A stretch of 64,000 nt of DNA, taken from Actinopolyspora biskrensis. Lineage in GTDB: Bacteria > Actinomycetota > Actinomycetes > Mycobacteriales > Pseudonocardiaceae. Positions 19,628-39,660 of the stretch are shown piece by piece. Below the pieces are notes generated by a model. That model did no database searches. It was not told where the DNA came from and saw only the letters and a program-made list of their open reading frames with translations. The DNA lies in assembly GCF_013408175.1 (NCBI RefSeq), contig NZ_JACBYW010000003.1:372001-436000 (forward strand), written 5' to 3'. The position numbers and the translations under genes are program-made. Numbering within the stretch: position 1 is the stretch's first letter; each line of letters opens with the position of its first letter.

Positions 19628-19856
19628 ACTGATGCTTTCCTGTCATGCTGATGGCTGGTGTGGTGCTTCGGCGCCCGCGGCGCCGAAAGTTTCACCCGAG
19701 CAGCTCGCACCGCCGCGGGTTCTCCCGTGGTGCCCACACGAGGACGGTCCCGACGTCGTGCGGGCCGCTACCCGAGGTCGGGGCACCCGCGGCGAGAGCC
19801 CGCGGGAGATTCCGCCACGGAACCACTTGATCAACCTGAACAGAAGACCTCGGTCA
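19628..19856 (-). repeat. Dispersed double-hairpin repeat, copy A (full)
   Basis: Read on the minus strand it begins at the stop codon of the flavin monooxygenase (TGACCGAGGTCTTCTGTTC). It then has a long palindrome (about 19712-19825, inner stem CCCGAC/GTCGGG at 19749 and 19777), and finally a short hairpin TTCGGCGCC/GGCGCCGAA near 19667-19687. Related copies are at 22710, 24365, 27064 and 39500. No coding potential is shared except accidental frames. Confidence 0.75.
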
Positions 19857-21008
19857 GGCCACGCCCACGCTCACGGAGGGATACGCCAGACCGCGCAGGA
19901 TGTTGCTGCCGGAGCGCAGCGAGATCACCTGGCTGCGGGTGGCGATCCACCCGGGGAACTTGCCGATGCGCTGCAACGGGGTGCGCCGCTGCGCCGAGGT
20001 CAGCGCGGCCGTGCGGGAAACCTTGGCCACCCTGGGGCGACGTTGCTGCTCGTAGTCCCGCAGCATCGGTTCCGGGTCCCCCTCCACGCGCGACAGCGCG
20101 GAGGAGAGCAGCCAGGCGTCCTCCATGGTCTGGTTGGCGGCCTGGGCCACGGCGGGCGGCATGGCGTGCGCGGCGTCGCCGATCAGCGTGGTGCGGGGCC
20201 CGCCCCACACCTTGGGGACCTGGTGCCGGATGTGCGGGAAGAAACCGAGGTCCTCGTCGGTGACGGAAGCCAACAGCTCCTCCACCGGATCCGGCCAGCC
20301 GGTGAAGGCGGCCCGCAGGTCCGAGACCGTCAGCTCGGGGTGGTCCTCGCTCCACGGCATGTCGAACCACCAGTGGAGCAGACCGTCCCCGGCGGGGATG
20401 AGCCCGCAGTGCCCGTCCCGCCCGGCGATGTTCAGCGTCTGGTAACCGTGCGCTATCGGGAGGTCGCTGTAGGTGAGCCCCTGCCAGCTGGCCCAGCCGG
20501 TCAGCCGCGCGGGCTCCCCGCCGAGAACCGTGCGCCGCACCATCGAACGCTGCCCGTCCGCGCCGACCACCACGTCCCCGGTCTCCGAGCCGCCGTCCTC
20601 GAAATCGGCGACGACGTGGTCGGCGAACTCCCGGACACCGACGCAGCGCCTGCCGAAGCGGAAGACCCCTCCCGGCAGCGCCTCCGCCATCCTGTTCAGC
20701 AGCTCACGCCGGGGAATCTCCACCGTGGGAGCGCCGAGACGCTCCGTGACCTCGTCGAGGTCGGCTTCCCAGAGCATCCTGCCCGCCGCGGTCATGGCCC
20801 GCAGGCTGTGCAGCTGACGGCCGACGCCCTCGAGGGAGATCCCCAGCCCGCTCAACGCGGCCGTACCATTGCTCCAGATGGTCACCCCGGCCCCACCGTC
20901 CCGGAGCCGGTCCGCGTGCTCGTAGATCCGAACCCGGTGCCCCTTGTCGAGCAGGCCTTTGGCCACGGCGAGTCCGCCTACGCCTCCCCCGATGACCAGA
21001 ACCCGCAT
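19854..21008 (-). CDS. FAD-dependent aromatic-ring-type monooxygenase
   Basis: About 384 residues of the class A flavoprotein hydroxylase family. The N-terminal dinucleotide fold is MRVLVIGGGVGGLAVAKGLL. The central DVVVGADGQRSMVRR is the DG motif. GPRTTLIGDAAHAMPPAVAQ is the GD motif that binds FAD ribityl. It uses NAD(P)H and oxygen to hydroxylate or epoxidise an aromatic or related substrate, unknown here. ATG 21008 fits the family; ATG 21035 is nine codons upstream. Its stop codon is the first triplet of dispersed repeat copy A. Confidence 0.87.
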   Translation of the reverse strand: MRVLVIGGGVGGLAVAKGLLDKGHRVRIYEHADRLRDGGAGVTIWSNGTAALSGLGISLEGVGRQLHSLRAMTAAGRMLWEADLDEVTERLGAPTVEIPRRELLNRMAEALPGGVFRFGRRCVGVREFADHVVADFEDGGSETGDVVVGADGQRSMVRRTVLGGEPARLTGWASWQGLTYSDLPIAHGYQTLNIAGRDGHCGLIPAGDGLLHWWFDMPWSEDHPELTVSDLRAAFTGWPDPVEELLASVTDEDLGFFPHIRHQVPKVWGGPRTTLIGDAAHAMPPAVAQAANQTMEDAWLLSSALSRVEGDPEPMLRDYEQQRRPRVAKVSRTAALTSAQRRTPLQRIGKFPGWIATRSQVISLRSGSNILRGLAYPSVSVGVA

Positions 21009-21245
21009 CGTCTCCGTCCGTTCGAAAACCGGCATCCCTGCAGAGTGGGCGGGTCGACCGCCGTGGGCCACCCCGGGCCCGCCTGCGACGCCGATTTTAT
21101 CCGGAACGTCTCGGACGGAGTCATTATCCTTGCTCACATCCGGATCACCCGGTTCACCTGTCCGGCCGAGCACGCGGGTCGACGCGTGCCGCTCGCCGCC
21201 GTCTCCGGTCCGGGGCCCCGGGTCGCCGCCGACCGGCGTTACCGT

Positions 21246-21446
21246 TCAGCCTGTACGCTCGAGGAAACGACCGGCGACCAACCCGGGTTCTTCGTCCCCG
21301 TCGAAGCGCACCCACAGCACGGGACCGTCGAACACGTCCGGCAGACCGGTCGCGGTCTCGACCACGGTCCCGATCTGATCCTGAAAGCGACCGAACGAAG
21401 CGCGCACACGCGTGCCGGGCTCCAACGGACTCGATGACTGCTCCAT
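21246..21446 (-). CDS. Small conserved hypothetical protein (66 aa)
   Basis: The body (EPGTRVRASFGRFQDQIGTV, then GPVLWVRFDGDEEPGLVAGR) has the alternating pattern of a small SH3/KOW-like beta barrel. Start ATG 21446 gives MEQSSSPLEPG; an in-frame start at 21494 would add 16 poorly conserved residues. No clear ribosome binding site is seen. It stands alone between the monooxygenase and the YigZ gene. Function unknown. Confidence 0.55.
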   Translation of the reverse strand: MEQSSSPLEPGTRVRASFGRFQDQIGTVVETATGLPDVFDGPVLWVRFDGDEEPGLVAGRFLERTG

Positions 21447-21666
21447 GAGAATGGACGGTACGTGCCCGCTCCACGCGACGAAAATCGCACCCACCGCTCC
21501 CGTGATTCAGGCACGTGCGCAGGGAATAAACACCGCTCACACGAGGTGCCGGAGATCACATCCGACCAGGGGTGACCGCTGTCACGGTTTCCGGCCGTGA
21601 GCCTGCCTTCGGTTCCGTTCGCCGCGGAGCGGCGACGGAACGGGCCACCGAGAACGGGAAGGAAAC

Positions 21667-22284
21667 ATGCGCACCATTCGAAACGCGGGATCCGCCGAGC
21701 TCGTGGAGAAGAAGTCGCGCTTTCTGTGCTCGCTCGAACGCGTCGAATCCGAGAAAGAGGCTCGGGAGTTCATCGGGCGGTGCCGCAAACAGCACCCGGA
21801 CGCCCGGCACCACTGCTACGCGTACGTGCTCGGTGACTCGGGGGAGAGCCAGAAGTCCAATGACGACGGTGAGCCCTCGGGAACCGCCGGCGTCCCCATC
21901 CTGGAGGTCCTCCGCCGCAACGAGCTGACCAACACGGTCGCGGTGGTGGTGCGGTACTTCGGCGGAGTGCTGCTCGGGTCCGGCGGCCTGATCAGGGCGT
22001 ACGGCACCGCCGTCACCACGGCGCTGGAAACGGCGGGGACGGTGCGGCGCCTGCGCGCCCGGACGGTGGTCGTCACGGTGGAGCACTCGCTGGCGGGCAA
22101 ACTGGACCACGAGCTGCGTGCCGCCGGGCACGTGCCCGGCGAGGTCCGCTACGGGCAGCGCGCCGAGTTCGACGTGCCGATCGCCGAGGACTCGCTCGAG
22201 GAGTTCCGGCAGTGGGTCACCGAGAGCACCGGGGGCTCCGCGGACATCGCCGTGGGGGATGTCGTTTTCGCCGAGGCCGAGTGA
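21667..22284 (+). CDS. YigZ/IMPACT family protein
   Basis: 205 residues. The family signature DDGEPSGTAGVPILEVL is at residues 59-75, followed by TVAVVVRYFGGVLLGSGGLI. The N-terminal UPF0029 and C-terminal DUF1949 halves are both present. Homologues are linked to translation control and RNA binding, and structurally to EF-G domain IV. GGAAGGA precedes the ATG. Monocistronic. The precise function is unsettled in the family. Confidence 0.92.
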   Translation: MRTIRNAGSAELVEKKSRFLCSLERVESEKEAREFIGRCRKQHPDARHHCYAYVLGDSGESQKSNDDGEPSGTAGVPILEVLRRNELTNTVAVVVRYFGGVLLGSGGLIRAYGTAVTTALETAGTVRRLRARTVVVTVEHSLAGKLDHELRAAGHVPGEVRYGQRAEFDVPIAEDSLEEFRQWVTESTGGSADIAVGDVVFAEAE

Positions 22285-22462
22285 CGACCCCCGCCCGCGT
22301 CCACCGTCGACATTTCATCCACAGTGGACCTCGCACTGTCCCGCATTCGGACGAATCGGACGTGAGAAGATCAACATCTCCGTGTCCGACCGACTCCGTT
22401 GCGTGTTAGGAACGCCCGGGGGTGATCGACCCACCCCGGAAACACGCGTCCGAAGGAGTCGT

Positions 22463-22669
22463 ATGACCGACATCGCCGAGAAACTGAACAAGGCCTACGA
22501 GGAGAAGACGATCTCCGAGCTCGCCGACGCCCCGGTATCGGCCCTGCAGGGTGTCAGCGAGAACGACGCCAAGCTGCTCGAAGACGCGTTCGGGATCCGC
22601 ACGGTGCGGGACCTGGGGACCAACAAGTACTTCCGCTGGGCTCAGGCGGTCGCCAACCTCGCCGACTGA
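22463..22669 (+). CDS. Small helix-hairpin-helix protein (68 aa)
   Basis: Starts MTDIAEKLNKAYEEKTISEL behind AAGGAG. The C-terminal part (SALQGVSENDAKLLEDAFGI, then RTVRDLGTNKYFRWAQAV) reads like a single helix-hairpin-helix as found in DUF4332 or RNA polymerase alpha tails. Possibly DNA- or protein-binding. Conserved-looking and well translated, but no named family is recalled. It is followed by dispersed repeat copy B. Confidence 0.75.
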   Translation: MTDIAEKLNKAYEEKTISELADAPVSALQGVSENDAKLLEDAFGIRTVRDLGTNKYFRWAQAVANLAD

Positions 22670-22709
22670 CCCGGAGAGCCCGCGGCTCGGCCTGCTCGGC
22701 GGGTCGGGT

Positions 22710-22810
22710 GGGGGAACCTCGGCCGGGGGCTCGCCGCGGGCCCCTCGACATCGAGCAGCCACTACGGCACGTCGGGGCCGTCCTCGCGAGCCCACCGGCT
22801 GAGAACCCCC
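22710..22810 (+). repeat. Dispersed double-hairpin repeat, copy B
   Basis: The same palindrome as copies A, C and E but in the opposite genomic orientation. It begins about 40 bp after the stop of the rightward 68-aa gene, so relative to its upstream gene it has the same orientation as copies A and C. The inner stem reads CCCCTCGACAT with CACGTCGGGG. Confidence 0.65.
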
Positions 22811-23006
22811 GGCGTTGCCGGTGAGCGACGTGGTCACTTCAGCGCTGCCCGCACCGGGAACGGCCCGCGGGCCCGGCACTGCCTCACGATGAAGTAACGA
22901 TCACCGGACGTGGCCACGCCGGGGGAACCTTTCACGGAACCCTTCCGTTCGCGCGACGAATTCGCCGTCGAACCCGGCGAAACGGCCCGCTACGGAAGGA
23001 CCGGAC

Positions 23007-23951
23007 ATGTTCAAACGAATGCTGCAAGCGGTCGGCATCGGCGGCCCCTCGGTGGACACCGTCCTACGGGAAGGAGCCTGCCACCCCGGAGGCGGCGTTT
23101 CCGGTGAGGTGCGCATCGGAGGGGCGAGCGGCAGCACCCGGATACAGCGGATCGACCTGATCCTGATCGCCCAGGTCGAGACCGCCGACGACCAGCAGGG
23201 GGCGCTGGAGTTCCGGCGGTTGACGGTGGCGGAGGACTTCCAGCTGGAAGCCGAGCAGCACACGAACATCCCGTTCGAGATCCCCCTGCCCTGGGAGACT
23301 CCGATAACCGCGCTGCGGGGGCAACCGCTGCCCGGGATGCGAGTGGGCGTGCGCACCGAGGTCGCGGTCGCGCGCGCGGTCGACACCGGCGACATGGACC
23401 CGCTGCACGTGGAACCGCTGCCCTGCCAGCTCCCCGCGATCGAAGCGCTGTTCGGCATGGGGGCCCAGCTGAAAAGCGCCGACGTGGAGCACGGCACGCT
23501 CAGCGGGATCGCCCAGGAGTTCCCCTTCTACCAGGAACTGGAGTTCTTCGCCCCGCCGGAGTTCTCCGGCCGGATCAACGAGGTCGAGCTGACCTTCGTC
23601 ACCCGCGCCGACAGCGTCGACGTCGTGCTGGAGGCCGACCGGCGCGGCGGGTTGTTCACCTCGGGCGGGGACGCGCTCGGCAGGATCCACCGTTCCCAGG
23701 AGGAAGCGGTCCACACCGACTGGACCTCCGAGATCCGTGGCTGGCTGGAGGCCGTCGCCCAGTCCGCGGGCGGTTTCTTCGGCGGAGGCCACGACTCCCA
23801 CGGCAAGCACGAGCACTCGGGGCACTCCGGAGGTTCCGGGATCGGAGGCATGGTCGCCGCCGGAGCCGCCGGAGTCGCGGCGGGAGCCGTCGGCGGAATG
23901 ATGCTCGACGAGGTGTTCGAGGGCGACGAGGAGGAGGGCGACGAGGAGTAG
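23007..23951 (+). CDS. Spo0M-like sporulation-control protein
   Basis: 314 residues. The first 240 form the Spo0M arrestin-like beta sandwich: MFKRMLQAVGIGGPSVDTVL, then FQLEAEQHTNIPFEIPLPWE, and IAQEFPFYQELEFFAPPEF. The C-terminus has a His/Gly stretch (HDSHGKHEHSGHSGGSG), a Gly/Ala-rich segment that could be membrane-associated, and an acidic end. In Bacillus Spo0M affects sporulation and cell shape; in actinomycetes the role is not well defined. GGAAGG is located upstream of the ATG. Confidence 0.9.
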   Translation: MFKRMLQAVGIGGPSVDTVLREGACHPGGGVSGEVRIGGASGSTRIQRIDLILIAQVETADDQQGALEFRRLTVAEDFQLEAEQHTNIPFEIPLPWETPITALRGQPLPGMRVGVRTEVAVARAVDTGDMDPLHVEPLPCQLPAIEALFGMGAQLKSADVEHGTLSGIAQEFPFYQELEFFAPPEFSGRINEVELTFVTRADSVDVVLEADRRGGLFTSGGDALGRIHRSQEEAVHTDWTSEIRGWLEAVAQSAGGFFGGGHDSHGKHEHSGHSGGSGIGGMVAAGAAGVAAGAVGGMMLDEVFEGDEEEGDEE

Positions 23952-23974
23952 AGGAAGGTCGGCGGCTCGGTTCG

Positions 23975-24006
23975 CTCGGGTGGTCGCGAGCGGCTTCGCC
24001 GCTTGA
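23975..24006 (+). repeat. REP-like hairpin, family 2, copy ii
   Basis: CTCGGGTGG, four bases, then AGCGGC-TTC-GCCGCTTG. It lies 24 bp after the Spo0M stop and may terminate that transcript. It matches copies at 18426 (reverse) and 51036. Confidence 0.6.
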
Positions 24007-24086
24007 CCGACGACCGGTACGACCGAGCGGTCGGCACCGCAGGGCGAAGCGGGAAACCGGAGATCCACCGAAGGGAAGGGGAAGCC

Positions 24087-24215
24087 GTGAGCTGGTTCGG
24101 CCAAGCACTCGAGGGAATCGGGGACATGGTGGAGGACGCGGCCGAGGAGGGCAGCGTCACCTCCGAGCTGGGAGACCTCGTCGAGGACCTGGGCGAGTCG
24201 ATGCAGGAGGAGTGA
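24087..24215 (+). CDS. Very small acidic protein (42 aa) next to Spo0M
   Basis: GTG 24087 follows AAGGGGAAG at good spacing. The product, VSWFGQALEGIGDMVEDAAE then EGSVTSELGDLVEDLGESMQ, is an acidic amphipathic helix. It has no cysteine, signal or membrane segment. It lies 135 bp after Spo0M and before a 10-bp hairpin. It may interact with Spo0M or a membrane surface; this is inference only. Too short for most gene callers. Confidence 0.55.
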   Translation: MSWFGQALEGIGDMVEDAAEEGSVTSELGDLVEDLGESMQEE

Positions 24216-24236
24216 GCAATCGGCGCCTCGGGAGTG

Positions 24237-24279
24237 TTGGGCCGCTGGCGCGCAGCCACCTGCGTCGCGAGCGGCCCAA
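24237..24279 (+). terminator. Hairpin after the 42-aa gene
   Basis: TTGGGCCGCT (24237-24246) pairs perfectly with AGCGGCCCAA (24270-24279). It terminates the small gene, and also occupies the place of the short hairpin of repeat copy C. Confidence 0.6.
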
Positions 24280-24364
24280 TCGAGCCGCTGCGAACCCGGA
24301 CAGGAGCTCCCGGAAGAAGGACACCGTCCGACCCAAGCGCTCTGAGCCTGAGCCGCCCGACCGA

Positions 24365-24514
24365 CCGCGGGTTCTCTCGTGGTGCTCTCGCGAGGACAGC
24401 CTCGACGTTGTGTAGGTGCCTACCCGATGTCGAGGAGCCCGCAGCGAGAGCCCGCGAGAGGTTCCGCCACGCAACCCCACCGAGCGACCGGCACCGCCGA
24501 AAAGCTCCCACTCA
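24365..24514 (-). repeat. Dispersed double-hairpin repeat, copy C
   Basis: On the minus strand it starts at the paaE stop codon and contains the same palindrome as copy A. The inner stem CCTCGACGT (24400-24408) pairs with ATGTCGAGG (24427-24435), with paired differences from copy A (CCCGAC/GTCGGG). Its outer arms CGCGGGTTCTC and GAGAGCCCGCG also pair. Confidence 0.75.
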
Positions 24515-25606
24515 GACGTCGTAGTCCACCGCCACCGTCTCCGACACGGGAAGCGCCTGGCAGGTCAGCACGAAACCGTCGTCCAGTTCGGACTGCTCGA
24601 GGGCGAAGTTGCGCCGCATGCGCACCTGCCCCTCGGTCACTCTGGCCCGGCAGGTTCCGCAGACCCCGCCCTTGCAGGCGAACGGGAGATCGGAGCGTAC
24701 CCGCTGCGCCGCGTCGAGCACCGGGGTGCCCTCGTCGAGCGCGACCTCGGTGGTGCGCCCGTCCAGGGTGATCCTGCCCGTGCCCGCGGAACCGTCGCCG
24801 GCCCTCTCCTCGTGCCGCACGGGCTCGGGAGGGAGTTCGTCCACGTAGAACAGCTCGCGGCGCACTCTGCCCGGGGGGACCCCCAGCCCGTCGAGCACGC
24901 GCCCGGCCGCGTCGACCATCCCGTACGGCCCGCACAGCCACCACCGCTCCGAACCGTCCAGCGGGATCAGCGTGCCGAGCAGCCCCCGCAGCTTGTCCTC
25001 GTCCAGCCGCCCGGTGACCAGCTCCGACTCGCGCGGCTCGCGGGAGAGCACGTGCACCAGTTCGAACCGGGCCGGGTACCGGTCCTTGAGATCGGCCAGT
25101 TCGTCGATGAACATCACCGTGTCGCTGCGCCTGTTGCCGTAGACCACCGTGACCGTGGAGCCGGTTTCGGCCAGCAGCGAGGAGGCGATGGACAGCACCG
25201 GGGTGATCCCGGATCCGGCCGCGATCAGCACGTGCCTTCCCGAGGTGTCCGGTTCCGGGGTGAACCGCCCGGACGGGGGCAGCACCTCGACCTCGTCACC
25301 CACACCGACCTCGCCGGTCAGCCAGCCGGAGAACATCCCCCCCGGCACCAGGCGGACACCGATGCGGAGGCGTTCGCCGCGCCGAGCGCAGATCGAGTAG
25401 CTGCGGCGGTGCTCTCCCTCGGCCGTCCACCGCCGCAGGGTCAGCGACTGCCCCGGCCGGAAGTCGTACAGCTCGGCGAGGTCCGCGGGCACGTCGAAGG
25501 TGACGGCGACGGCGTCGTCACACAGCTTCTCGACGTCGGCCACGCGCAGCGTGTGGAAGGCGTTGTCGCCCCGTGTCCTCGGACTCGAAACCGTCGGCGT
25601 CGGCAC
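24512..25606 (-). CDS. paaE: Phenylacetyl-CoA 1,2-epoxidase reductase subunit PaaE
   Basis: 364 residues: FAD-binding ferredoxin reductase domain (FRPGQSLTLRRW, RRSYSICA), NADP-binding region (VLIAAGSGITPVLSIASSLL, LCGPYGMVD), and C-terminal plant-type [2Fe-2S] ferredoxin with Cys311, Cys316, Cys319 and Cys349 (CX4CX2CX29C). Passes electrons from NADPH to the PaaA di-iron centre. It abuts paaD with no gap. Last gene of paaABCDE. Its stop codon begins repeat copy C. Confidence 0.95.
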   Translation of the reverse strand: MPTPTVSSPRTRGDNAFHTLRVADVEKLCDDAVAVTFDVPADLAELYDFRPGQSLTLRRWTAEGEHRRSYSICARRGERLRIGVRLVPGGMFSGWLTGEVGVGDEVEVLPPSGRFTPEPDTSGRHVLIAAGSGITPVLSIASSLLAETGSTVTVVYGNRRSDTVMFIDELADLKDRYPARFELVHVLSREPRESELVTGRLDEDKLRGLLGTLIPLDGSERWWLCGPYGMVDAAGRVLDGLGVPPGRVRRELFYVDELPPEPVRHEERAGDGSAGTGRITLDGRTTEVALDEGTPVLDAAQRVRSDLPFACKGGVCGTCRARVTEGQVRMRRNFALEQSELDDGFVLTCQALPVSETVAVDYDV

Positions 25607-26146
25607 TCAGATCTCCTTGAAGTATTCGAAGGGCTCCAGGCAGCGCAGGCAGCGGTACAGCGCCTTGCACGCGGTCGCGCTGAACTCCGAGGTCCGTTCC
25701 GTGCGCGTCGATCCGCACCTCGGACAGCTGACGCGCCGCCGCGGTGGCTCCAGGGTCAGCGGGACCGGCCCCCCTGCGGTACCGGGAATCCCCGCGGCTC
25801 CGGCCGAGGAGTCGTCCGGGGGGTGTATGCCGTGTTCGGCCAGTTTGCGCCTGCCCCGTTCGCTGATCCAGGAGCTGCTCCACGGCGGGGAGAGCTCGGT
25901 GCGGATCCGCACGTCGTCGAAACCGGCCTCGTTCAGCTTGCGCTGCAGGTCGGAGCGCATCTCGGTCAGCGCGGGGCAGCCGGAGTAGGTCGGCGTGATC
26001 GTCACCAGCACCCCGCCGTCCCCGCTCGGACGGACGTCGCGCAGCACGCCCAGGTCGGCGAGGGTCAGCATCGGCAGTTCCGGGTCGGTGACCGTCTCGG
26101 CCACGGCCCGCGCCGCGGACGTGTCGACTTCGCCGCCGGTCACCAT
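25607..26146 (-). CDS. paaD: Phenylacetyl-CoA epoxidase maturation protein PaaD
   Basis: 179 residues. The N-terminal MIP18/DUF59-type domain (VTDPELPMLTLADLGVLRDV, later PTYSGCPALTEM) is followed by a C-terminal zinc or Fe-S ribbon, CPRCGS...CKALYRCLRC. Needed for assembling the iron centre of the PaaABCE enzyme. ATG 26146 overlaps the end of paaC by seven bases, and paaE follows directly. Confidence 0.95.
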   Translation of the reverse strand: MVTGGEVDTSAARAVAETVTDPELPMLTLADLGVLRDVRPSGDGGVLVTITPTYSGCPALTEMRSDLQRKLNEAGFDDVRIRTELSPPWSSSWISERGRRKLAEHGIHPPDDSSAGAAGIPGTAGGPVPLTLEPPRRRVSCPRCGSTRTERTSEFSATACKALYRCLRCLEPFEYFKEI

Positions 26147-27030
26147 GTCGCCTCCGGATCGCTGCGGGCGAGACTCTGCATCTCGGCCAGCAGGTAGCCG
26201 AAGTGCTCGGTGTGGATCCCGTCCCGGCCCGCTCTGCCCGCGAGCGTGCCCACCGGGGTGACTTCGGGCCGCGTCGCGGCGGCCCGCGCGCACACCTGGT
26301 CGAGCACCTCGTCGAACTCCCGGCGCAGCGCAGCGGGATCGACCGCGACACCGTCCCGCTCGAGGCGGTGTTCCACCGCGTGCGGGGTGAACAGTTCCTC
26401 GGCGAACGGCAGCACGTCCGCGAACCCCGCGTGCAGTCGCTCGGCCGAGTACTCGGTGCCGTCCCCGAGGCGCACGGCCCAGCGGGCCGCGTAGTCGCGG
26501 TGGTAGGCGACCTCCTTGACCGCCTTGGCCGCCACCGCCGCCAGCACCGGATCGGCCGAGCCGGTGAGCCGGTTCAACAGGGCCAGTCGCCAGGTGGAGA
26601 ACACCAGCAGCGCGGCGACGGTCCTGCCGAAGTCCCCCCGCGGCAGCTCGACCAGCCGCACGTTGCGGAACTCGTCCTCGGGCCGGAAGTGGGCCAGCGC
26701 GTCCTCGTCCCGGCCGCTTCCGTCGACCGTTCCCGCGCGTGCCAGCAGCATGCGTGCCTGGCCGAGCAGGTCGAGCGCTATGTTCGCCAGCGCCACCTCG
26801 TCCTCCAGCTCGTGGGCGCGGGTCACCCACTCGGTGAGCCGTTGCGCGAGGACCAGCGCGTCGTCACCGAGCATCAGGCAGTAGCTCGCCAGATCGGCCC
26901 GGTCGATCCCGTCCGGGACGGTGGTGTCCACCCCGGACAGCGGATCCTCGAAGCCGGTCCCGAAGGCCCAGCGCGCGTCCCCTTCCGGGTGCGCTTCGGC
27001 GATGGCCTCGTAAGCGTTGTCGAAGGACAT
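26140..27030 (-). CDS. paaC: Phenylacetyl-CoA epoxidase structural subunit PaaC
   Basis: 296-residue ferritin-like helical protein: SYCLMLGDDALVLAQRLTEW, later ANIALDLLGQARMLLARAG, EFRNVRLVELPRGDFGRTVA and VKEVAYHRDYAARWAVRLGD. It pairs with PaaA as the non-catalytic scaffold of the epoxidase. The intergenic gap to paaB upstream (180 bp) is unusual for this operon and holds repeat copy D. Confidence 0.95.
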   Translation of the reverse strand: MSFDNAYEAIAEAHPEGDARWAFGTGFEDPLSGVDTTVPDGIDRADLASYCLMLGDDALVLAQRLTEWVTRAHELEDEVALANIALDLLGQARMLLARAGTVDGSGRDEDALAHFRPEDEFRNVRLVELPRGDFGRTVAALLVFSTWRLALLNRLTGSADPVLAAVAAKAVKEVAYHRDYAARWAVRLGDGTEYSAERLHAGFADVLPFAEELFTPHAVEHRLERDGVAVDPAALRREFDEVLDQVCARAAATRPEVTPVGTLAGRAGRDGIHTEHFGYLLAEMQSLARSDPEATW

Positions 27031-27063
27031 GACGTTAACCTCCCGGGGCGACGTCCGCTGTGC

Positions 27064-27213
27064 TCACTGATGCTTCCCTGTCCTGTCGTGTTGATGGTTG
27101 GCGTGGTGCTTCGGCGCCGGAGGTGCCGAAACGACCACGTTGCCCACCGGCGCCGCCGCGAGAGGTTCCGCCAAGCGAGCACCGAATCAAGGGCGAACAG
27201 AAAATCTCAGTCA
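27064..27213 (-). repeat. Dispersed repeat, copy D, lacking the second palindrome (empty form)
   Basis: On the minus strand it begins at the paaB stop codon (TGACTGAGATTTTCTGTTC), nearly as copy A. It has the short hairpin TTCGGCGCC-GGA-GGTGCCGAA, but the approximately 105-bp palindrome of copies A and C is absent: CCGCCGCG joins directly to AGAGGTTCCGCC. It interrupts the paaB-paaC junction. Confidence 0.7.
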
Positions 27214-28529: not shown

Positions 28530-28550
28530 ACCGCTTCACCTCTCCCGATA

Positions 28551-30761: not shown

Positions 30762-30877
30762 AGGCATTGTGACGTAGAACAAGCTCGTGCACAATCACCG
30801 AATCAAAAGCTGCCCACGACATAACCGGGACCCGAACAGCGGAAACACCACTGCCTTCCCGGTGACAACCGAAATTG

Positions 30878-30899
30878 AGTGACCGACTGTTCGGTCAGT
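30878..30899. promoter_or_regulatory. Putative PaaR operator upstream of paaI-paaK
   Basis: AGTGACCGACTGTTCGGTCAGT pattern: TGACCGA-CTGT-TCGGTCA, a perfect 7-4-7 palindrome, 21 bp before the paaI start. It closely resembles the 22-bp operators known for TetR-type PaaR of corynebacteria. Confidence 0.75.
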
Positions 30900-30919
30900 A
30901 TTCGAGGTGGTGAAGCCAG

Positions 30920-32703: not shown

Positions 32704-32785
32704 CGCCCGGGACGACGGGACTCGCGGACGTCGCCGCGGCCGGGCCCGGAGACGCCGCCGGAACGGCACTGCGAGACTGACGAAC

Positions 32786-33397
32786 ATGGTGGGCGCGAGC
32801 ACGAACGACGGCGCGGGACGGAAGAAGCCCGGTTACGACCTCGATTCCCTGCTGCGCACCGCCGTCAAGGTCTTCCACGAACGTGGTTACGACGGCACGA
32901 GCATGGAGGACCTGGCCAAACGGCTCGGTATCACCAAATCGGCCATCTACCACCACGTCTCGAGCAAGCAGGAGCTGCTTCGCCTGAGCGTCGACCGGGC
33001 CCTGGACGCGCTGTTCGCGGTGCTCGACGAACCGCGGTCCCGCGAGGGGGAGCCCATGGACCGGCTGCACCACGTGGTGCGGCGCAGCGTCGAGGTGCTC
33101 ATCGACGAGCTCCCCTTCGTCACCCTGCTGCTGCGCGTGCGGGGCAACAGCAAAGTGGAGCGTCAGGCCCTGGCACGCCGCAGGGAGTTCGACCACCTCG
33201 TCGGTGAGCTGGTCGCCGAGGCGGAACGGGCGGGAAGCCTGCGCTCCGACCTGGATCCCGCGCTGACGAGCAGGCTGCTGTTCGGGATGGTGAACTCGGT
33301 CATCGAGTGGTACCGACCGCGGCAGGGACTGAGCAAGGACGAGATCGCCGAAACCGTGACCAGGATCGCCTTCGACGGGATGAGGCGCAGGCAGTAG
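32786..33397 (+). CDS. paaR: TetR-family regulator, probable PaaR
   Basis: 203 residues. HTH: LLRTAVKVFHERGYDGTSME, then DLAKRLGITKSAIYHHVSSK. The C-terminal region has IEWYRPRQGLSKDEIAETVT, the TetR_C_17-like form seen in paa-cluster repressors. Expected to bind TGACCGA-N4-TCGGTCA sites and to release on phenylacetyl-CoA. Located 82 bp after paaK. No palindrome lies directly before it, so it may be read from the paaI promoter. Confidence 0.85.
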   Translation: MVGASTNDGAGRKKPGYDLDSLLRTAVKVFHERGYDGTSMEDLAKRLGITKSAIYHHVSSKQELLRLSVDRALDALFAVLDEPRSREGEPMDRLHHVVRRSVEVLIDELPFVTLLLRVRGNSKVERQALARRREFDHLVGELVAEAERAGSLRSDLDPALTSRLLFGMVNSVIEWYRPRQGLSKDEIAETVTRIAFDGMRRRQ

Positions 33398-33450
33398 GCG
33401 CTGCTGCTCCGTGTTGCCGAGCACCGCCACGTGACCGAGAGTGCTAGGCA

Positions 33451-33464
33451 AACACCTTGGTGTT
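33451..33464. promoter_or_regulatory. Small palindrome before the first APC permease
   Basis: AACACC-TT-GGTGTT lies 26 bp upstream of the ATG at 33491, between paaR and the permease. It could be an operator or a leader hairpin. Confidence 0.4.
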
Positions 33465-33490
33465 TTCAGTCACTCGAATGGGGTGGACAG

Positions 33491-35167
33491 ATGGGAACAC
33501 CGGCCGCTTCGCCGACCAGCGCCACGGTGCAGCTCGATCACGGGGTGCGCAGGGACGTCAACAAGATCAGCCTGCTGTTCACCGGAGTCGGTGCGATCAT
33601 CGGCTCCGGCTGGCTGTTCGGCGCCCTGTACGCCTCCCAGATCGCCGGACCCGCGGCGATCCTGTCCTGGGTCATCGGCGCGATCATGATCATGTTGATC
33701 GGCTTCGTCTACGCCGAGCTGTCGGTGATGTTCCCCGTGGTCGGGGGCATCATCCGCTTCCCGCACTACTCCTTCGGCTCCTTCGCCAGCTTCAGCGCGG
33801 GATGGATCAGCTGGCTCGCCGCGGCGGCGGTCACCCCCATCGAAGTGCTCGCCACCATGCAGTACGCCTACCCCTACGCGGGGTGGCTGATGACCCCGGT
33901 AGAGGGCGAATACCTGGTCAGCGGATACGGCTGGTTGATCGCGATAGCGCTGATGGCGCTGTACAGCACGATCAACGCCCTGGGGGTGGGGGTCTTCGCC
34001 CGGCTGAACAACATCCTGGTGTGGTGGAAGCTCGCGGTGATCGTGCTGGTCGTCATCGTGTTCTTCGCGGTCTCGTTCAACCCGGGCAACCTCACCGAGT
34101 TCGGCGGGTTCGCCCCGGAGGGACTCGGAACGATCTTCACCGCGATCCCGGCCGCCGGGGTCGCTTTCTCCTTCCTGGGCTTCCGCAACGGCGTCGAGTT
34201 CGCGGGCGAGACCAACGACCCCCAGCGCAACGTGCCCTTCGCGCTGATCGGATCGGTGATCATCACCGCGGTGATCTACGTGCTGCTGCAGATCGCCTTC
34301 GTCACGGGGTTGCCGCAGGACGTGCTGGGGCAGGGCTGGCACCAGCTGACCTTCGCGGAGAGCGCCGGGCCGCTGGCGGGGCTGTCCCTGCTGCTCGGGG
34401 TGGTCTGGTTGGCCTGGCTGTTGCGGGTGGACGCGATAATCTCGCCCGCCGACACGGGGCTGATCTACGCGGGTGTGACCACCAGGCTGTCCTACGCCAA
34501 CGCCCGCAACGACAACGCACCGCAGGTGCTGACCCGGCTCAACCGGCGCGGTGTGCCGTGGGTGTCCGTCCTGCTGATGTTCGTGGTCGGCTGCTTCTTC
34601 TTCCTGCCGTTCCCCGCCTGGTCGAAGTTCATCGGCTTCATCACCTCGGCCTTCGCCGTCTCCTTCGCCCCCGGTTGCCTGGTGATCGGAGCGCTGCGGC
34701 GCCAGCTGCCGGACCAGCACCGCCCCTTCCGGCTGCCCGGAGGGGACACCATCCCGCTGCTGGCGTTCTTCTCCTCCAGCCTGCTCGTGTTCTGGTCCGG
34801 CTGGTCGATCAACGAGAAGATGCTGATCGGGCTGCTGGTCGGCTACGTGGTCTTCGCGGCCTACAACCTGTTCGGCAAGCACGCGAAACCACCGATCGAC
34901 TTCAGGTCCGGCTCGTGGTTCCCCGTGTGGCTGCTGGGCATACTCGCGCTGAGTTATTTCGGCGAGGTGACGCCCAACGAAACCGCCGACCCGGCTCTGG
35001 TCCTCCCCGGTGGGGACGGCCCGATCGGTGTGGGGCTCGGCGCGCTGGTCATCGCGGGCTGGAGCGTGCTGATCTACTACTACTCCATGGCCGTGCGGCT
35101 CCCCTCCCGGCGGGCCGCCGCCTACATCGAGAAGACACCGACCGACGCGCCGACCACGGCCGGGTGA
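33491..35167 (+). CDS. APC-superfamily amino acid permease, paralogue 1
   Basis: 558 residues with about twelve membrane helices. The first helix GVGAIIGSGWLFGALYASQI is the APC substrate-site loop; GFRNGVEFAGETNDPQRNVP is the helix-6/7 segment. Imports an amino acid or amine with protons or sodium. Directly downstream of the phenylacetate genes, so an aromatic amino acid or phenylethylamine is possible but unproven. A paralogue with long identical DNA blocks is at 36669-38342. Confidence 0.87.
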   Translation: MGTPAASPTSATVQLDHGVRRDVNKISLLFTGVGAIIGSGWLFGALYASQIAGPAAILSWVIGAIMIMLIGFVYAELSVMFPVVGGIIRFPHYSFGSFASFSAGWISWLAAAAVTPIEVLATMQYAYPYAGWLMTPVEGEYLVSGYGWLIAIALMALYSTINALGVGVFARLNNILVWWKLAVIVLVVIVFFAVSFNPGNLTEFGGFAPEGLGTIFTAIPAAGVAFSFLGFRNGVEFAGETNDPQRNVPFALIGSVIITAVIYVLLQIAFVTGLPQDVLGQGWHQLTFAESAGPLAGLSLLLGVVWLAWLLRVDAIISPADTGLIYAGVTTRLSYANARNDNAPQVLTRLNRRGVPWVSVLLMFVVGCFFFLPFPAWSKFIGFITSAFAVSFAPGCLVIGALRRQLPDQHRPFRLPGGDTIPLLAFFSSSLLVFWSGWSINEKMLIGLLVGYVVFAAYNLFGKHAKPPIDFRSGSWFPVWLLGILALSYFGEVTPNETADPALVLPGGDGPIGVGLGALVIAGWSVLIYYYSMAVRLPSRRAAAYIEKTPTDAPTTAG

Positions 35168-35308
35168 GCGTTCCGAAACCGTCGTGACGGTGGCGCGCCC
35201 GGCGGGCCGGGGTTCGAGCAGCAACGCGGATTCGGACCGGCCCGGTCGAAGACGGGAGTCCTTCCTGCTCTGCCCGCTGTCGTGGACGGACCTGATCCGC
35301 GGGGACAG

Positions 35309-35631
35309 CTACTGGGCCGACAGCCAGGTCCGGGCCTCGTTGACGCGTTCCTTGTCGCACAGGGCCTCGCCGAGGTCGGTGTCGAGGCGGTTGGCGATGG
35401 CGCAGAGGTAGATCAGGATGTCGGCGAGCTCCTCGTCGGCGGTGCCGGTGATCGAGCCCTGCTCGACGGGGGTCTTCCCGCTTGCGGACGGCCTTGCACA
35501 GTTCTCCGTGCTCCTCGCCGAGTTTGAGGGACTGCTCCAGCACGGTGCTGCCGGAGAAACCGTTCGAGTTCCATCTCGGCGACGTAGTGCTGGAGATCGG
35601 TGAGCGTGGTGTCCGTCCGGAGCGGCGGCAT
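35309..35631 (-). pseudogene. MazG-like nucleotide pyrophosphohydrolase with two frameshifts
   Basis: Three frames together give one protein: MPPLRTDTTLTDLQHYVAEM (frame 1), GFSGSTVLEQSLKLGEEHGE and LCKAVRKRE (frame 2), and KTPVEQGSITGTADEELADI, LIYLCAIANRLDTDLGEALC and ending TWLSAQ (frame 3). EEHGEL and DEELADIL are the MazG metal-binding helices. Frame breaks lie near 35570 and 35480. Intact relatives are about 105-110 residues. Either decayed or affected by base-call errors. Confidence 0.75.
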
Positions 35632-35857
35632 GTCGCGGGGCCTTCGAGGGTCAAGAAGCGAGTGGGCCGTACTGTATTCCTTGGTGGGATTTCGTGCTCG
35701 GGGCGTGTTGGAGCAGTGCCAGCTGGTCGTCTGTGGTTCCGCGCGGGGTACTGGACCAGCCCAGCCGGAGGGCGTCGGCGGAGGAACGGAAAAGGGGACA
35801 CCCCTGGCCTGGTGACAGGATCCCGACAGCGCGAGCGCTCGGGGCTGCCGGGTGGCG
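35632..35857. other. Intergenic stretch between MazG pseudogene and HTH gene
   Basis: About 225 bp without a supported gene. It should hold the leftward promoter of the MazG remnant. The frames seen here have no ribosome binding site or domain. Confidence 0.4.
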
Positions 35858-36091
35858 TCACGCGGACGCCGAGATTTCGGGGACGCGGGGTTGATCTGCT
35901 GTGCCGCGGCGAGGCCCGGCTCCTCCAGGTCCGCGCAGCCGCACACCGGCCTCGATCAGCACACGATGGACAAAACCGCACGAGCGGCCCGTCACTGCAG
36001 CGAGAGCTCGGATGCTCGCCCCGCTCTCGTACTGTTTACGGCCCGACGTCCCGATACCCGCCGGTGTCGGGACGTTTTCCTTGACGGCCAT
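35858..36091 (-). CDS. Small helix-turn-helix protein (77 aa)
   Basis: MAVKENVPTPAGIGTSGRKQ then YESGASIRALAAVTGRSCGF and VHRVLIEAGVRLRGPGG is a widely conserved actinobacterial pattern of a resolvase-like HTH: ASIRALAAVTG-RSCGFVHRVL. The tail after RLRGPGG is longer than usual and Pro/Arg-rich. GAGG precedes ATG 36091. Divergent from the DUF397 gene. DNA-binding, target unknown. Confidence 0.8.
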   Translation of the reverse strand: MAVKENVPTPAGIGTSGRKQYESGASIRALAAVTGRSCGFVHRVLIEAGVRLRGPGGAGPRRGTADQPRVPEISASA

Positions 36092-36179
36092 CTATCCTCA
36101 CCCGACCGGCCCTCGCACGGTCGCCGATACAACGGGTACTTCCTGAAGAGGACGTAACCTCACCCCCAGGAGCACCCAC

Positions 36180-36389
36180 ATGACCGCCCCGGACTTCAGT
36201 CAGGCTCGCTGGCGCAAGTCCAGCCGCAGCAACGGAGGCGGTGGAGCGTGTGTCATGGTGGCGCACGTGCCCACCGCCACCGGCGTCGCCGACAGCAAAC
36301 TCGGTGACGACAGCCCCGTCCTGCCGTTCGGCAAAACCGCGTGGACACAGTTCCTCGACGCGATCAAAAGCGACCGCCTCGACGGCTGA
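36180..36389 (+). CDS. DUF397 domain protein (69 aa)
   Basis: FSQARWRKSSRSNGGGGACV then MVAHVPTATGVADSKLGDDS and TAWTQFLDAIK covers the whole DUF397 domain. These proteins usually sit next to an XRE regulator with a DUF5753 domain and act as a pair (BldB-related abaA-type units). Here that partner is absent; a different small HTH gene is divergent. CAGGAG lies before ATG 36180. A terminator follows. Confidence 0.92.
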   Translation: MTAPDFSQARWRKSSRSNGGGGACVMVAHVPTATGVADSKLGDDSPVLPFGKTAWTQFLDAIKSDRLDG

Positions 36390-36400
36390 CCCCGCTTCGC

Positions 36401-36435
36401 GAAGTCCCGCTCGATGTGCCGTCGGGCGGGACTTC
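36401..36435 (+). terminator. Terminator after the DUF397 gene
   Basis: GAAGTCCCGC (36401-36410) pairs with GCGGGACTTC (36426-36435), followed by TTCG. It begins 12 bp after the stop codon. Confidence 0.75.
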
Positions 36436-36534
36436 TTCGTGGCGCGCCGCCGTGCCGAACGTCGTGGTCGCTGTCGCCCGACCCCGTTCCTGCCTTCACC
36501 CGGGTCCACGCAGCGCGTTCGATAAGGCAGCGAC

Positions 36535-36653
36535 ATACCTTTGTGCACGAAATGTTACTTATTGACTTGAAAGTCTAACCGTTTCGTGTTGACGAGCCCG
36601 CTCGAATCCTAGAGAGTCCACGCTCACGGTAGTTATCGACCTCACAAAGGTAT
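36535..36653. repeat. Long-range 11-bp inverted repeat around the second permease promoter
   Basis: ATACCTTTGTG (36535-36545) and CACAAAGGTAT (36643-36653) are exact complements 97 bp apart. The right arm ends 15 bp before ATG 36669, next to the ribosome binding site. Inside lies GACTT-GA-AAGTC (36564-36575), an AT-rich palindrome near likely promoter elements. Confidence 0.55.
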
Positions 36654-36668
36654 GGAAAGGGCGAATAG

Positions 36669-38342
36669 ATGGCGACACCAACTGCGCAACCGACGCAGGC
36701 TAAGGTGCAGCTCGATCACGGGGTGCGCAGGGACGTCAACAAGATCAGCCTGCTGTTCACCGGAGTCGGTGCGATCATCGGCTCCGGCTGGCTGTTCGGT
36801 GCCCTGTACGCCTCCCAAATCGCCGGTCCGGCAGCGATCCTGTCCTGGATCGTCGGCGCGATCATGATCATGTTGATCGGTTTCTCCTACGCCGAGCTGT
36901 CGGTGATGTTTCCGGTCGTCGGCGGAGTCATCCGCTTCCCGCACTACTCCTTCGGCTCCTTCGCCAGCTTCAGCTCCGGCTGGATCAATTGGCTGGCCGC
37001 CGCGGCGGTCACCCCCATCGAAGTGCTCGCCACCATGCAGTACGCCTACCCCTACGCGGGGTGGCTGATGACCAAGGTCGACGGCGAGTACCTCGTCGAC
37101 GGTGCGGGCTGGTTCGTGGCGATCGGACTGATGGCGCTCTACAGCGCGATCAACGTGCTCGGCGTACGACTGTTCGCCTACCTGAACAACCTGCTCGTCT
37201 GGTGGAAGCTCGCGGTGATCGTGCTGGTGATCGTGGTGCTCTTCGCCCTGGCGTTCAACCCGGGCAACCTCACCGAGTTCGGCGGGTTCGCCCCCAGCGG
37301 CCCGGGAGCCGTCTTCACCGCGATCCCCGCCGCGGGCATCGCCTTCTCGTACCTGGGCTTCCGCAACGGCGTCGAGTTCGCGGGCGAGACCAGCAACCCC
37401 CAGCGCAACGTGCCCTTCGCGCTGATCGGGTCGATCGTGATCACCGCGGTGATCTACGTGCTGCTGCAGGTCGCCTTCATCACGGGGCTGCCGCAGGAGC
37501 TGCTCGGCGACGGGTGGGCGAACCTCTCCTTCGCCGAGAACGCGGGCCCGTTGGCCGGCCTGGCCATCGCGCTGGGGGCCTTCTGGATGGCCGTGCTGCT
37601 GCGCATCGACGCCGTCGTCTCCCCGGCCGACACGGGGCTGATCTACGCGGGTGTGACCACCAGGCTGTCCTACGCCAACGCCCGCAACGACAACGCACCG
37701 CAGGCGTTGGCCAAGCTGAACAACCGCGGCGTTCCGTGGGTGTCGATCCTGCTGATGTTCGTGGTCGGCTGCTTCTTCTTCCTGCCGTTCCCCGCCTGGT
37801 CGAAGTTCATCGGCTTCATCACCTCGGCCTTCGCCGTCTCCTTCGCACCGGGTTGCCTGGTCGTCGGAGCGCTGCGGCGCCAGCTTCCGGACCAGCACCG
37901 CCCCTTCCGGCTGCCCGGAGGGGACACCATCCCGCTGCTGGGCTTCTTCGCCTCCAGCCTGCTCGTGTTCTGGTCCGGCTGGTCGATCAACGAGAAGATG
38001 CTGATCGGGCTGCTGGTCGGCTACGTGGTCTTCGCCGTCTACCACGCGGTCACCAACCACGACACCCCGCCGATCGACTTCAGGTCCGGCTCGTGGTTCC
38101 CGATCTGGCTCGCCGGGGTGATGGTGTTCAGCTACTTCGGTGAGGTGGACCCGACCGCCGAGGCGGGGGCCAGCTTCCTCGGAGGCGGTGACGGGCCCAT
38201 CGGCCTCGGTCTCGGCGCCGTGGTACTGGCCGTGTGGAGCGTGGTGATCTACTACTACTCCATGTCCGTGCGGCTGCCCGCGCACCGGGCCGTCACCTAC
38301 ATCGAGAAGACACCGACCGACGCCCCGACGACCGCGAGCTGA
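36669..38342 (+). CDS. APC-superfamily amino acid permease, paralogue 2
   Basis: 557 residues, the same architecture as the permease at 33491-35167, with most residues identical and the two differing mainly at the N-terminus, in residues around 130-180 and 300-330, and before the C-terminus. Transport of the same or a related substrate is expected. It has its own promoter region with AT-rich palindromes, unlike paralogue 1, suggesting separate regulation. GGAAAGGG precedes the ATG. A strong terminator follows. Confidence 0.88.
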   Translation: MATPTAQPTQAKVQLDHGVRRDVNKISLLFTGVGAIIGSGWLFGALYASQIAGPAAILSWIVGAIMIMLIGFSYAELSVMFPVVGGVIRFPHYSFGSFASFSSGWINWLAAAAVTPIEVLATMQYAYPYAGWLMTKVDGEYLVDGAGWFVAIGLMALYSAINVLGVRLFAYLNNLLVWWKLAVIVLVIVVLFALAFNPGNLTEFGGFAPSGPGAVFTAIPAAGIAFSYLGFRNGVEFAGETSNPQRNVPFALIGSIVITAVIYVLLQVAFITGLPQELLGDGWANLSFAENAGPLAGLAIALGAFWMAVLLRIDAVVSPADTGLIYAGVTTRLSYANARNDNAPQALAKLNNRGVPWVSILLMFVVGCFFFLPFPAWSKFIGFITSAFAVSFAPGCLVVGALRRQLPDQHRPFRLPGGDTIPLLGFFASSLLVFWSGWSINEKMLIGLLVGYVVFAVYHAVTNHDTPPIDFRSGSWFPIWLAGVMVFSYFGEVDPTAEAGASFLGGGDGPIGLGLGAVVLAVWSVVIYYYSMSVRLPAHRAVTYIEKTPTDAPTTAS

Positions 38343-38371
38343 GAACGCGGCCGCACCGTCGGAGAACGCAC

Positions 38372-38405
38372 GGGGGCGGGGTCGCCACGCGCGAACCCCG
38401 CCCCC
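38372..38405 (+). terminator. Terminator after the second permease
   Basis: GGGGGCGGGGT pairs with ACCCCGCCCCC (11 bp) around a 12-nt loop, followed by GCTTCTCG. Confidence 0.75.
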
Positions 38406-38535
38406 GCTTCTCGTCCCGCCCGCTGCCCCGCGTCAACGGGAACCGCGAGTAGCACGCACCACACGCCGGGGAGCACGCGCGGCTGCCCGCATACACTGCG
38501 AAGTGTCCGGCGCAGCCGACCCGACAGGAGCAGTG

Positions 38536-39462
38536 GTGTCCACGAACGGCGAAACCGTGAACAGGGTGGCGGTGGTGGTCAACACGCTGTCCCGCACCGG
38601 CAGCATCGCCTACTCCCAGGCGATTCGGAGCCTGACCGCCCAGGGGGTCCCCCTCGGAACGACCTATCCGCTGCGGGACCCCGCCCGGCTGGTGGAGACG
38701 GTGCGTTCGGCCGTGGACGACGGGCACGACTTCGTCGTGATCGGCGGCGGCGACGGGACCATCAGTTCGGTGGTCGACGTACTGGCGCACACCGGGGTGC
38801 CGATGGGCCTGCTTCCCCTCGGCACGGCCAACGACTTCGCCCGCACGCTCGAGATCCCCACGGACCTGGAACAGGCGTGCCGGACCATAGCCCACGGCAA
38901 GGTCGTCGACATCGATCTCGGCCTGTGCGGCAACAACTACTACGCCAACAGGGCGTCGATCGGCATCGGATCCAACGTCGCCACCGCCATGTCGCCGACC
39001 CTGAAGAAACGCATCGGGTCGCTGGCCTACCCGATCGCCTCGGCCAAGGGATTCATGCGGCACCGCCCGTTCCCCGCCCGGCTGAGCTTTCCCGACGGGG
39101 ACCACGAGGCCAGGGAGTACAACAGCCTGATGCAGGTCTCCGTGGCGAACGGACGCTACTTCGGGGGCGGGCAGCTGGCGGTGCCCGACTCCGGCATCGA
39201 CGACAGCACGCTGGACATAACGGTGATCAGGCACGGCAACGTCCGCGAGCTGCTCACCGTCGCCCGGAAGTTCAAGAGCACCGAGCTGCTCGAAACGGAC
39301 CAGGCCGAGCACATCCGGACCCGGCGGGTGCGGATCGAGACCAAGCCGGACCTGCCGATCAACATCGACGGCGAACTGGTCGCCAGCACCCCGCAGGAAG
39401 TGTCCGTGGCACGCAACGCGCTGCACGTCGCCGTTCCCCGCAGCTGGGTCGACGGCGGTTGA
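38536..39462 (+). CDS. Diacylglycerol kinase-family lipid kinase
   Basis: 308 residues. The nucleotide loop GGGDGT is at residues 70-75, followed by PLGTANDFARTLEIP. The C-terminal lobe contains NGRYFGGGQLAVPDSGIDDS and ends with a lipid-kinase strand (INIDGELV). It phosphorylates a diacylglycerol, sphingoid base or related lipid at the membrane surface. GTG 38536 is chosen because AGGAG lies six bases upstream; GTG 38533 is adjacent. Monocistronic. Confidence 0.9.
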   Translation: MSTNGETVNRVAVVVNTLSRTGSIAYSQAIRSLTAQGVPLGTTYPLRDPARLVETVRSAVDDGHDFVVIGGGDGTISSVVDVLAHTGVPMGLLPLGTANDFARTLEIPTDLEQACRTIAHGKVVDIDLGLCGNNYYANRASIGIGSNVATAMSPTLKKRIGSLAYPIASAKGFMRHRPFPARLSFPDGDHEAREYNSLMQVSVANGRYFGGGQLAVPDSGIDDSTLDITVIRHGNVRELLTVARKFKSTELLETDQAEHIRTRRVRIETKPDLPINIDGELVASTPQEVSVARNALHVAVPRSWVDGG

Positions 39463-39499
39463 TGGGCGAGTTTCCGTCTCGGCTCGCGTGGCTCGGTGC

Positions 39500-39660
39500 T
39501 CTCCGGCGCGGGCAGCGCCGGAGCGTCCACGCTGCCCGCCGGCACCGCCGCGGGGTCTCCCGTGGTGCTCCCGCGCGGACGGCCCCGACGTCGTGCAGGC
39601 CGCTACCCGATACCGGCGCCCCCGCAGCGAGAGGTTCCACCAAGCAACCACCCGCGCGAG
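39500..39660 (-). repeat. Dispersed double-hairpin repeat, copy E
   Basis: Contains the short hairpin CTCCGGCGC/GCGCCGGAG (covarying with TTCGGCGCC/GGCGCCGAA in copy A) and the long palindrome from CGCCGCGGGGTCTCCCG to GCAGCGAGAGGTTCC. The inner stem is weaker than in copies A-C. Unlike the others, no gene ends into it in the matching direction: both flanking genes are rightward. Confidence 0.65.

Follow-up and report, generated by a model that had tools for sequence, protein, structure and literature searches.

A family of long, REP-like hairpin repeats at gene 3' ends in Actinopolyspora and its relatives

Hairpin units in the window

The 64,000-nucleotide stretch of Actinopolyspora biskrensis DNA analysed here (the window) belongs to a 4.95 Mb genome of the Pseudonocardiaceae (G000 below) and carries several copies of a repeat whose main element is one long hairpin of ~115 nt, which we named H. 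The whole unit can be followed in copy A (19628-19856, minus strand), which runs from the stop codon of the upstream gene (19854-19856) through a 27-nt leader (19827-19853) and H (19707-19826; 128.7 bits with model R1) to a distal small hairpin (19666-19689; TTTCGGCGCC...GGCGCCGAAG). The right end of this unit resembles its left end, inverted, and by eye the ends of the A and D units are imperfect inverted repeats. Copy B lies on the plus strand, with a leader (22670-22699) adjoining the stop codon at 22667-22669 and H at 22700-22818 (R1, 61.8 bits). Copy C lies on the minus strand, with a leader (24479-24511) adjoining the stop codon (24512-24514) of a paaE-like gene and H at 24359-24478 (R1, 127.6 bits), whose core (24371-24465) has a folding z-score of -6.4. 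Copy D (27064-27213, minus strand) follows the paaB stop codon (27211-27213) and consists of the outer ends and the distal small hairpin (27109-27131), without H; a 33-nt fragment alone scores with R1 (22.1 bits, E 0.055), and 83 bases of this copy (27098-27180) are missing from the sister genomes G005 and G001. Copy E, also on the minus strand, comprises H (39542-39651; R1, 102 bits), which sits inside a 113-bp segment that G005 lacks, and a distal small hairpin (39501-39523, by eye).

A preliminary description of this region had proposed five related copies of a double-hairpin repeat attached to stop codons. Sequence comparison bears this out for A, B, C and E, which are copies of one sequence in the orientations given there, whereas D lacks the core hairpin and has only the outer parts, the leader and the distal small hairpin, in common with A. 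As described, A, C and D each start at the stop codon of the preceding gene (minus-strand open reading frames (ORFs) ending at 19854, 24512 and 27211), and the start TGAC-GAG-T-TTCTGTTC said to be common to A and D is present. Copy B had been placed about 40 bp after a stop in the same relative orientation; its core in fact starts 30 nt past the stop at 22669, and its leader touches that stop. Copy E, by contrast, does not follow a co-oriented stop, the nearest one being 429 nt away, and is counted as off-stop below. As for the double hairpin, the main element is a single long one; another hairpin, small and perfect, with a stem of 7 bp or more, lies downstream of H in 39 of the 84 best copies of the genome, about half, compared with 8.6 in shuffles.

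The family is anchored behind stop codons

Model R1 gives at least 150 matches in the own genome, the weakest among them at E 0.002, so that the repeat is no product of chance and its family is larger than the preliminary description had proposed. Copy A as query gives at least 43 (40 of 307 candidates scored), and a short pattern with up to three mismatches gives 113, against 28 for the reversed control. Copy numbers are lower bounds, and absence from other genomes is not firm: the best 150 candidates per genome were scored with R1 and the best 46, 18 or 150, depending on the search, with a second model, R2; filters were stricter in the R2 surveys of 100 family genomes and of 246 class genomes, and the E-values of both models are rough. 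The best 84 of the at least 150 R1 matches were placed against genes called with a purpose-made codon-usage finder, on which the distances from H to the stop depend.

The unit usually consists of a leader that starts at a stop codon, followed by H at a near-fixed distance and in the sense of the gene. When 606 kb of G000 and G005 were searched regardless of genes, 64 R2 matches were obtained, or 46 after the removal of 18 antisense echoes of stronger matches, and 36 of these 46 start 38-55 nt past a co-oriented stop. With random intergenic placement, 237 of 4744 and 248 of 4561 positions qualify (5.0-5.4%), giving a binomial p of ~6e-37. A contiguous 300 kb of the own genome holds 20 R1 matches of at least 55 bits; 17 lie downstream of a co-oriented gene, and H starts 24-34 nt past the stop in 16 of these and 4 nt past it in one. 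Among the best 84 copies of the own genome, 64 have a co-oriented upstream gene, H starts 20-45 nt past the stop in 62, and TGA, TAG and TAA are all found ahead of H. With E up to 10, the leader models by themselves place 49 of 86 and 20 of 37 matches at -3 to 20 nt from a co-oriented stop. In the stretches examined in two species, 20 of 275 and 16 of 285 predicted genes are followed by H, while a tail, with or without H, is present at 32 and 34 of 245 orthologues if weak leader matches are counted in. The genome G006 has no pattern match and only two R2 matches at E up to 0.0001. Since the paaB and paaE-like stops of this copy-poor genome are in the same position as in the own genome, the C and D units stand behind native stops and have not truncated their genes.

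It is conceivable that the family is a selfish repetitive extragenic palindrome (REP) or miniature inverted-repeat transposable element (MITE) without function, which inserts nearly at random and whose survivors of purifying selection are those right behind stops. Its copy number, its palindromic and modular build, its patchy presence and its origin-proximal location would all suit such an element, and Di Nocera et al. (2013; PMC3733652) describe REPs of other bacteria that are likewise no more than 20 bp from ORF 3' ends. However, selection of this sort predicts no peak that is less than 20 nt wide and confined to one orientation, given that only about one in twenty intergenic placements qualifies, and stop codons change along with the tails (see below). 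We therefore judge this explanation improbable.

A long hairpin with a variable stem

Five core sequences each yield one long hairpin, with folding z-scores of -2.9 to -6.4. Since RNAalifold returned a poor fold for the first alignment, presumably because two stem registers had been aligned together, a hand-written structure of 31 pairs was tested on the alignments instead. In a sequence-only alignment of 18 diverse copies from one genus, 91.8% of cells are paired (81.2 in shuffled alignments), both sides have changed in 14 of the 31 pairs (9.4 shuffled) and 54 cells carry double changes (19.6 shuffled), a covariation signal that is gone once the pairing partners are slid. An alignment of 36 distinct rows, mostly from other genera and fitted to the model, has both-side changes in 22 of the 31 pairs (17.5 shuffled) and 198 double-change cells, as opposed to 54.6 when shuffled and 33-45 when slid. 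The stem is variable and the conserved parts lie inside it: a mid-stem loop, which by eye reads CGCT-N-CGGGATC opposite GCTGTCCTCGCG in the majority of rows from other genera; a G-U pair kept in 34 of the 36 distinct rows; and an apex, ATCRRG-stem-CACNACGTC or near it in many rows (by eye). A further stem type, 'S', with a leader near TAACTC-TAACGGAGCTTTGCG, has the same apex on a different stem and likewise stands behind stops (in G000 and G005, for example at C3:508823 and 467016). The conserved parts within a changing stem point to a folded strand that is recognised by something, either as RNA or as single-stranded DNA.

A hairpin directly behind a stop, with a sequence-variable stem and a fixed orientation, is by analogy what integron cassettes carry, so that attC recombination sites of the integron kind, dispersed over the ends of genes, come to mind. 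The left core motif of attC, RYYYAAC, occurs in 0 of the 84 copies, the right one, GTTRRRY, in 11 (3.2 shuffled) and the pair in 0; moreover, the surrounding genes are syntenic between species and form no cassette arrays. Hence an attC origin seems very remote.

An intrinsic terminator is a GC-rich hairpin followed by a U-tract. Like the intrinsic terminators of actinomycetes, H is a hairpin at a 3' end, and the distal small hairpin resembles such a terminator, but H belongs to a dispersed homologous repeat and has no consistent U-tract. A T-rich octamer is found within 150 nt past H in 27 of 84 copies against 18.7 in shuffled sequence, a mild enrichment only, and the window between 19000 and 28700 holds four terminator-like sites against 3.2 in shuffles. 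H is probably not simply a strong terminator, because a consistent U-tract is missing and because five species carry H between paaB and paaC, where a strong terminator would cut the run of genes. The suggestion in the preliminary description that the repeat is a termination module gains no clear support from these data. Its companion idea, a reused 3'-untranslated-region (3'-UTR) module rather than a random REP, is strongly supported as far as position is concerned: 36 of the 46 R2 matches share one spacing and one orientation behind a stop, and the position recurs in other genera (25 of 33 loci, see below). Mobility, though, is still compatible with these data.

Gain, loss and swapping between species

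G000 and G005 have flanking DNA that is ~95% alike. The distance between genes differs by at least 60 bp in 55 of 228 orthologous neighbour pairs, a number to which differing gene-start calls contribute. Near-empty sites are found at C3:336488 (251 bp versus 5) and 571977 (244 bp versus 9), and at C3:316626 and 340382 G005 has the leader and distal part without H. Such H-less forms, copy D included, were probably generated by deletion between direct repeats flanking H. H stands at the same stop in both genomes in 12 cases, in G000 only in 8 and in G005 only in 2, where by our own arithmetic ~1 shared stop is expected. The two copies are just 0.56-0.75 identical at 9 of the 12 shared stops and still alike at the other 3. 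In 7 of these 9 cases the G005 sequence is 0.82-0.92 identical to a G000 copy located behind some other stop; in one case this copy is the tail of the neighbouring convergent gene. A third species, G001 (~91%), adds sites at which the copy is different in each of the three species, such as C3:305903, 344931 and 469823. At G000:C3:469526-469969 the tails of two convergent genes are of different types, and the sides are opposite in G005. A simple in-place inversion at C3:469823 was considered; replacement was judged likelier than flipping because the copies are 84.7% alike while the flanks are 94-96% alike, and because the types lie on opposite sides. Gain, loss and exchange of tails between species are thus much faster than change in the genes that they follow, which suggests that the module moves or is exchanged in the way of REP-like elements.

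The stop codon itself takes part in these changes. Of 36 orthologous ends with a tail, 7 have different stop codons in G000 and G005, compared with 1 of 185 without a tail (p 1.3e-5), which is what one would see if exchange involved a block starting at the stop codon. In this count, leader matches as weak as E 10 were accepted for tail-bearing ends, 24 gene pairs whose ends are shifted (18 tail-free, 6 tail-bearing) are omitted, and one of the seven differences (gene 183, TAA/TAG) may be an ordinary substitution. At greater distance there is also persistence: in the ~80% identity range, copies at the same site average 0.82 identity as against 0.75-0.76 between sites (31, 21 and 158 pairs), so that some sites keep their occupants. 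The paaB-paaC gap (window 27031-27210) has family members in G000 (copy D, without H) and, with H, in G002, G004, G007, G008 and G009, while G006 has almost no gap there.

These comparisons bear on the possibility that the family is a functional 3'-UTR RNA only, that is, a cis-acting element (a transcript-end signal, a decay barrier or a site for an RNA-binding protein) that selection keeps at chosen genes and gene conversion homogenises, without any transposition. Sense orientation and narrow spacing are what such an element should have; so are strong covariation with conserved internal loops and the G-U pair, the sharing of occupied stops by sister species beyond chance, and the presence of H at site D in five further species. 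However, near-empty sites and gain or loss between species only ~5% apart are not expected of it, nor is the patchy presence in 15 of 96 family genomes outside the genus, nor are the copies that are antisense or between divergent genes. It is possible, but in our view doubtful, that selection on the RNA explains the family by itself.

Distribution across genomes

An exact 22-base piece of the repeat is found in 48 stretches of named genomes, all of them Actinopolyspora (A. xinjiangensis, A. alba, A. mzabensis and A. righensis). The first pattern is nearly limited to the genus, with 17 to 71 matches in the own genome and 8 of 9 congeners and 0 or 1 in 51 others. R2 (E up to 0.001) extends the range, with matches in 19 of 100 family genomes; 15 of these lie outside the genus, in 10 other genera, and four of the 15 have a single match. 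When more candidates were scored, R2 gave 116 matches in G022, 43 in G068, 13 in G078, 11 in G014, 9 in G021 and 5 in G035. In a class-wide sample of 246 genomes (E up to 0.0001, 18 candidates scored in each), the own genome alone was matched.

The position behind stops is kept in these relatives. Among 33 loci from other genera, whose stems are unrelated, 25 have a co-oriented stop 35-69 nt ahead of the R2 start. Seven strands in this set were guessed from a short motif and agree with a further analysis, and one locus (L218) is counted as a miss although the motif suggests the other strand, on which a stop lies 54 nt upstream. In stretches of G022 and G001, which were partly chosen around known matches or sites and are not unbiased samples, 9 of 13 matches lie 31-61 nt and 9 of 10 lie 36-56 nt past a co-oriented stop, respectively. 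The leader (..TTGCGTRG.GGT..GGCGGAACCT) is recognisably alike in the loci from other genera, in G022 and in G001.

Searches of phage and plasmid collections with one 160-base query gave no match, and Rfam 15 has no match to the element at the gathering threshold in window positions 18000-41000. Seven loci from other genera gave 13 Rfam matches at E up to 5, none at the element, those above the cut-off being transfer RNAs. We found no actinobacterial stop-anchored repeat in the literature, most subscription journals being outside the coverage of this search.

H copies crowd near the replication origin. In G005, with dnaA at 166 kb, 82 of the 92 best matches listed (of 134) lie in the origin-proximal half and 62 of the 92 are on the leading strand; in G002, with dnaA at 1.6 kb, the same is true of 45 and 41, respectively, of the 58 best matches listed (of 123).

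Discussion

The nearest known kind of element is the REP. According to Di Nocera et al. (2013; PMC3733652), REPs and bacterial interspersed mosaic elements of the GTAG and CGTC superfamilies are high-copy extragenic palindromes that are probably transcribed; as a rule they occupy gaps between convergent or co-directional genes, near the 3' ends of ORFs, and in two genomes most convergent REPs lie no more than 20 bp from an ORF end. Since that article reports it for REPs, proximity to the stop is not new in itself; the string 'actinobacter' appears nowhere in its main text. H is like a REP in being extragenic, of high copy number and near ORF 3' ends, and GTAG and CGTC strings occur inside its apex, with GTAG or GTGG just ahead of the stem in many copies. 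It differs in size (~115 nt with 31 modelled pairs, instead of a palindrome of 20-40 bp that bears an unpaired GTAG or CGTC tag at one end), in having a replaceable stem around conserved internal loops and apex, in its mostly gene-sense orientation and narrow spacing and, unlike GTAG REPs, in having no REP-associated tyrosine transposase (RAYT)-type Y1 transposase flanked by repeats in the Actinopolyspora genomes, the only ones tested.

ERIC/RU and similar hairpin repeats of enterobacteria are intergenic mobile sequences of 100-200 bp that resemble MITEs. To our knowledge, they have nothing comparable to the stop-codon edge, the rule of orientation or the exchange of stems. The rule of orientation and spacing, the exchangeable stems and the swapping in place look new.

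The best explanation for the observed position, orientation, structure, gain and loss, and swapping is that the five copies belong to a large family of non-coding, REP-like mobile units of Pseudonocardiaceae at gene 3' ends. That H is such a unit and is also transcribed as a structured 3' UTR we consider reasonably probable. The units would spread and replace each other as blocks with the stop codon at their left edge, either transposing or recombining with one another through a putative enzyme. Transcribed as the 3' end of the mRNA, H may protect or define the end of the transcript, and this role could select for units that lie behind a stop in sense orientation. A ribosome at a stop codon covers ~12-15 nt beyond it. 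H begins just past the reach of the terminating ribosome and would therefore leave termination unhindered, but it could be a barrier to decay or set the transcript end. We also considered a 'stacking' of new units upstream of old ones, which is not established.

Several observations weigh against this explanation. As regards mobility, no mobilising enzyme is linked to H in the Actinopolyspora genomes tested. Among the ten searched, copy-rich G001 and G008 have no Y1 transposase gene (PF01797); H is present at only 1 of 10 Y1 loci inspected (of 24 matches), and the three Y1 loci whose reading frames were read resemble IS605-type TnpA by eye. The sole Y1 match of the own genome (L198; G000:C5, near 89 kb), IS605-like by eye, lies ~180 bp from an H copy, which looks like a single coincidence. 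The near-empty sites have no certain target duplication. Placement is not strict either: 10 of the 46 R2 copies, E included, are not behind a co-oriented stop, and among the 84 best copies of the own genome 20 have an oppositely read upstream gene and two more are over 200 nt from the stop. Some off-stop copies are antisense or between divergent genes, and others may follow genes missed by the codon-usage finder. As regards the RNA, the folding of whole units together with their flanks exceeds that of shuffles only modestly (z -1.6 to -3.9), and covariation alone is no proof of an RNA role because template switching within palindromes also yields compensatory changes. Finally, mobility alone leaves the sharp left edge unexplained, because an enzyme that acts on DNA has no obvious means of recognising an in-frame stop.

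A bolder reading is that insertion or exchange is itself directed to stop codons, the left edge being a stop that the unit can bring along. Such targeting would have to act via the mRNA, via the terminating ribosome or via a homologous landing leader already present at many gene ends; copies would then arrive mostly in gene sense and become the 3' UTR of their target. We regard this version as rather unlikely.

Why should a hairpin that moves or is exchanged behind stop codons matter? Bacterial 3' UTRs are poorly understood, and the transcript ends of actinomycetes especially so, U-tract terminators being rare there. With the stop codon as a ruler and a hairpin that is exchangeable, the family offers many natural replicates for the function of 3'-end hairpins, and sister species that carry different tails on the same gene are ready natural experiments. 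If insertion rather than selection sets the spacing, this would be target choice of a new sort; we know of no enzyme that chooses stop codons in this way.

Other features of the window

Two similar long genes lie near each other at 33481-38342 of the window. The region at 33.5-35.2 kb also matches the counterpart of the 36.7-38.3 kb region in nine related genomes, with ~82-86% DNA identity where the matches are long.

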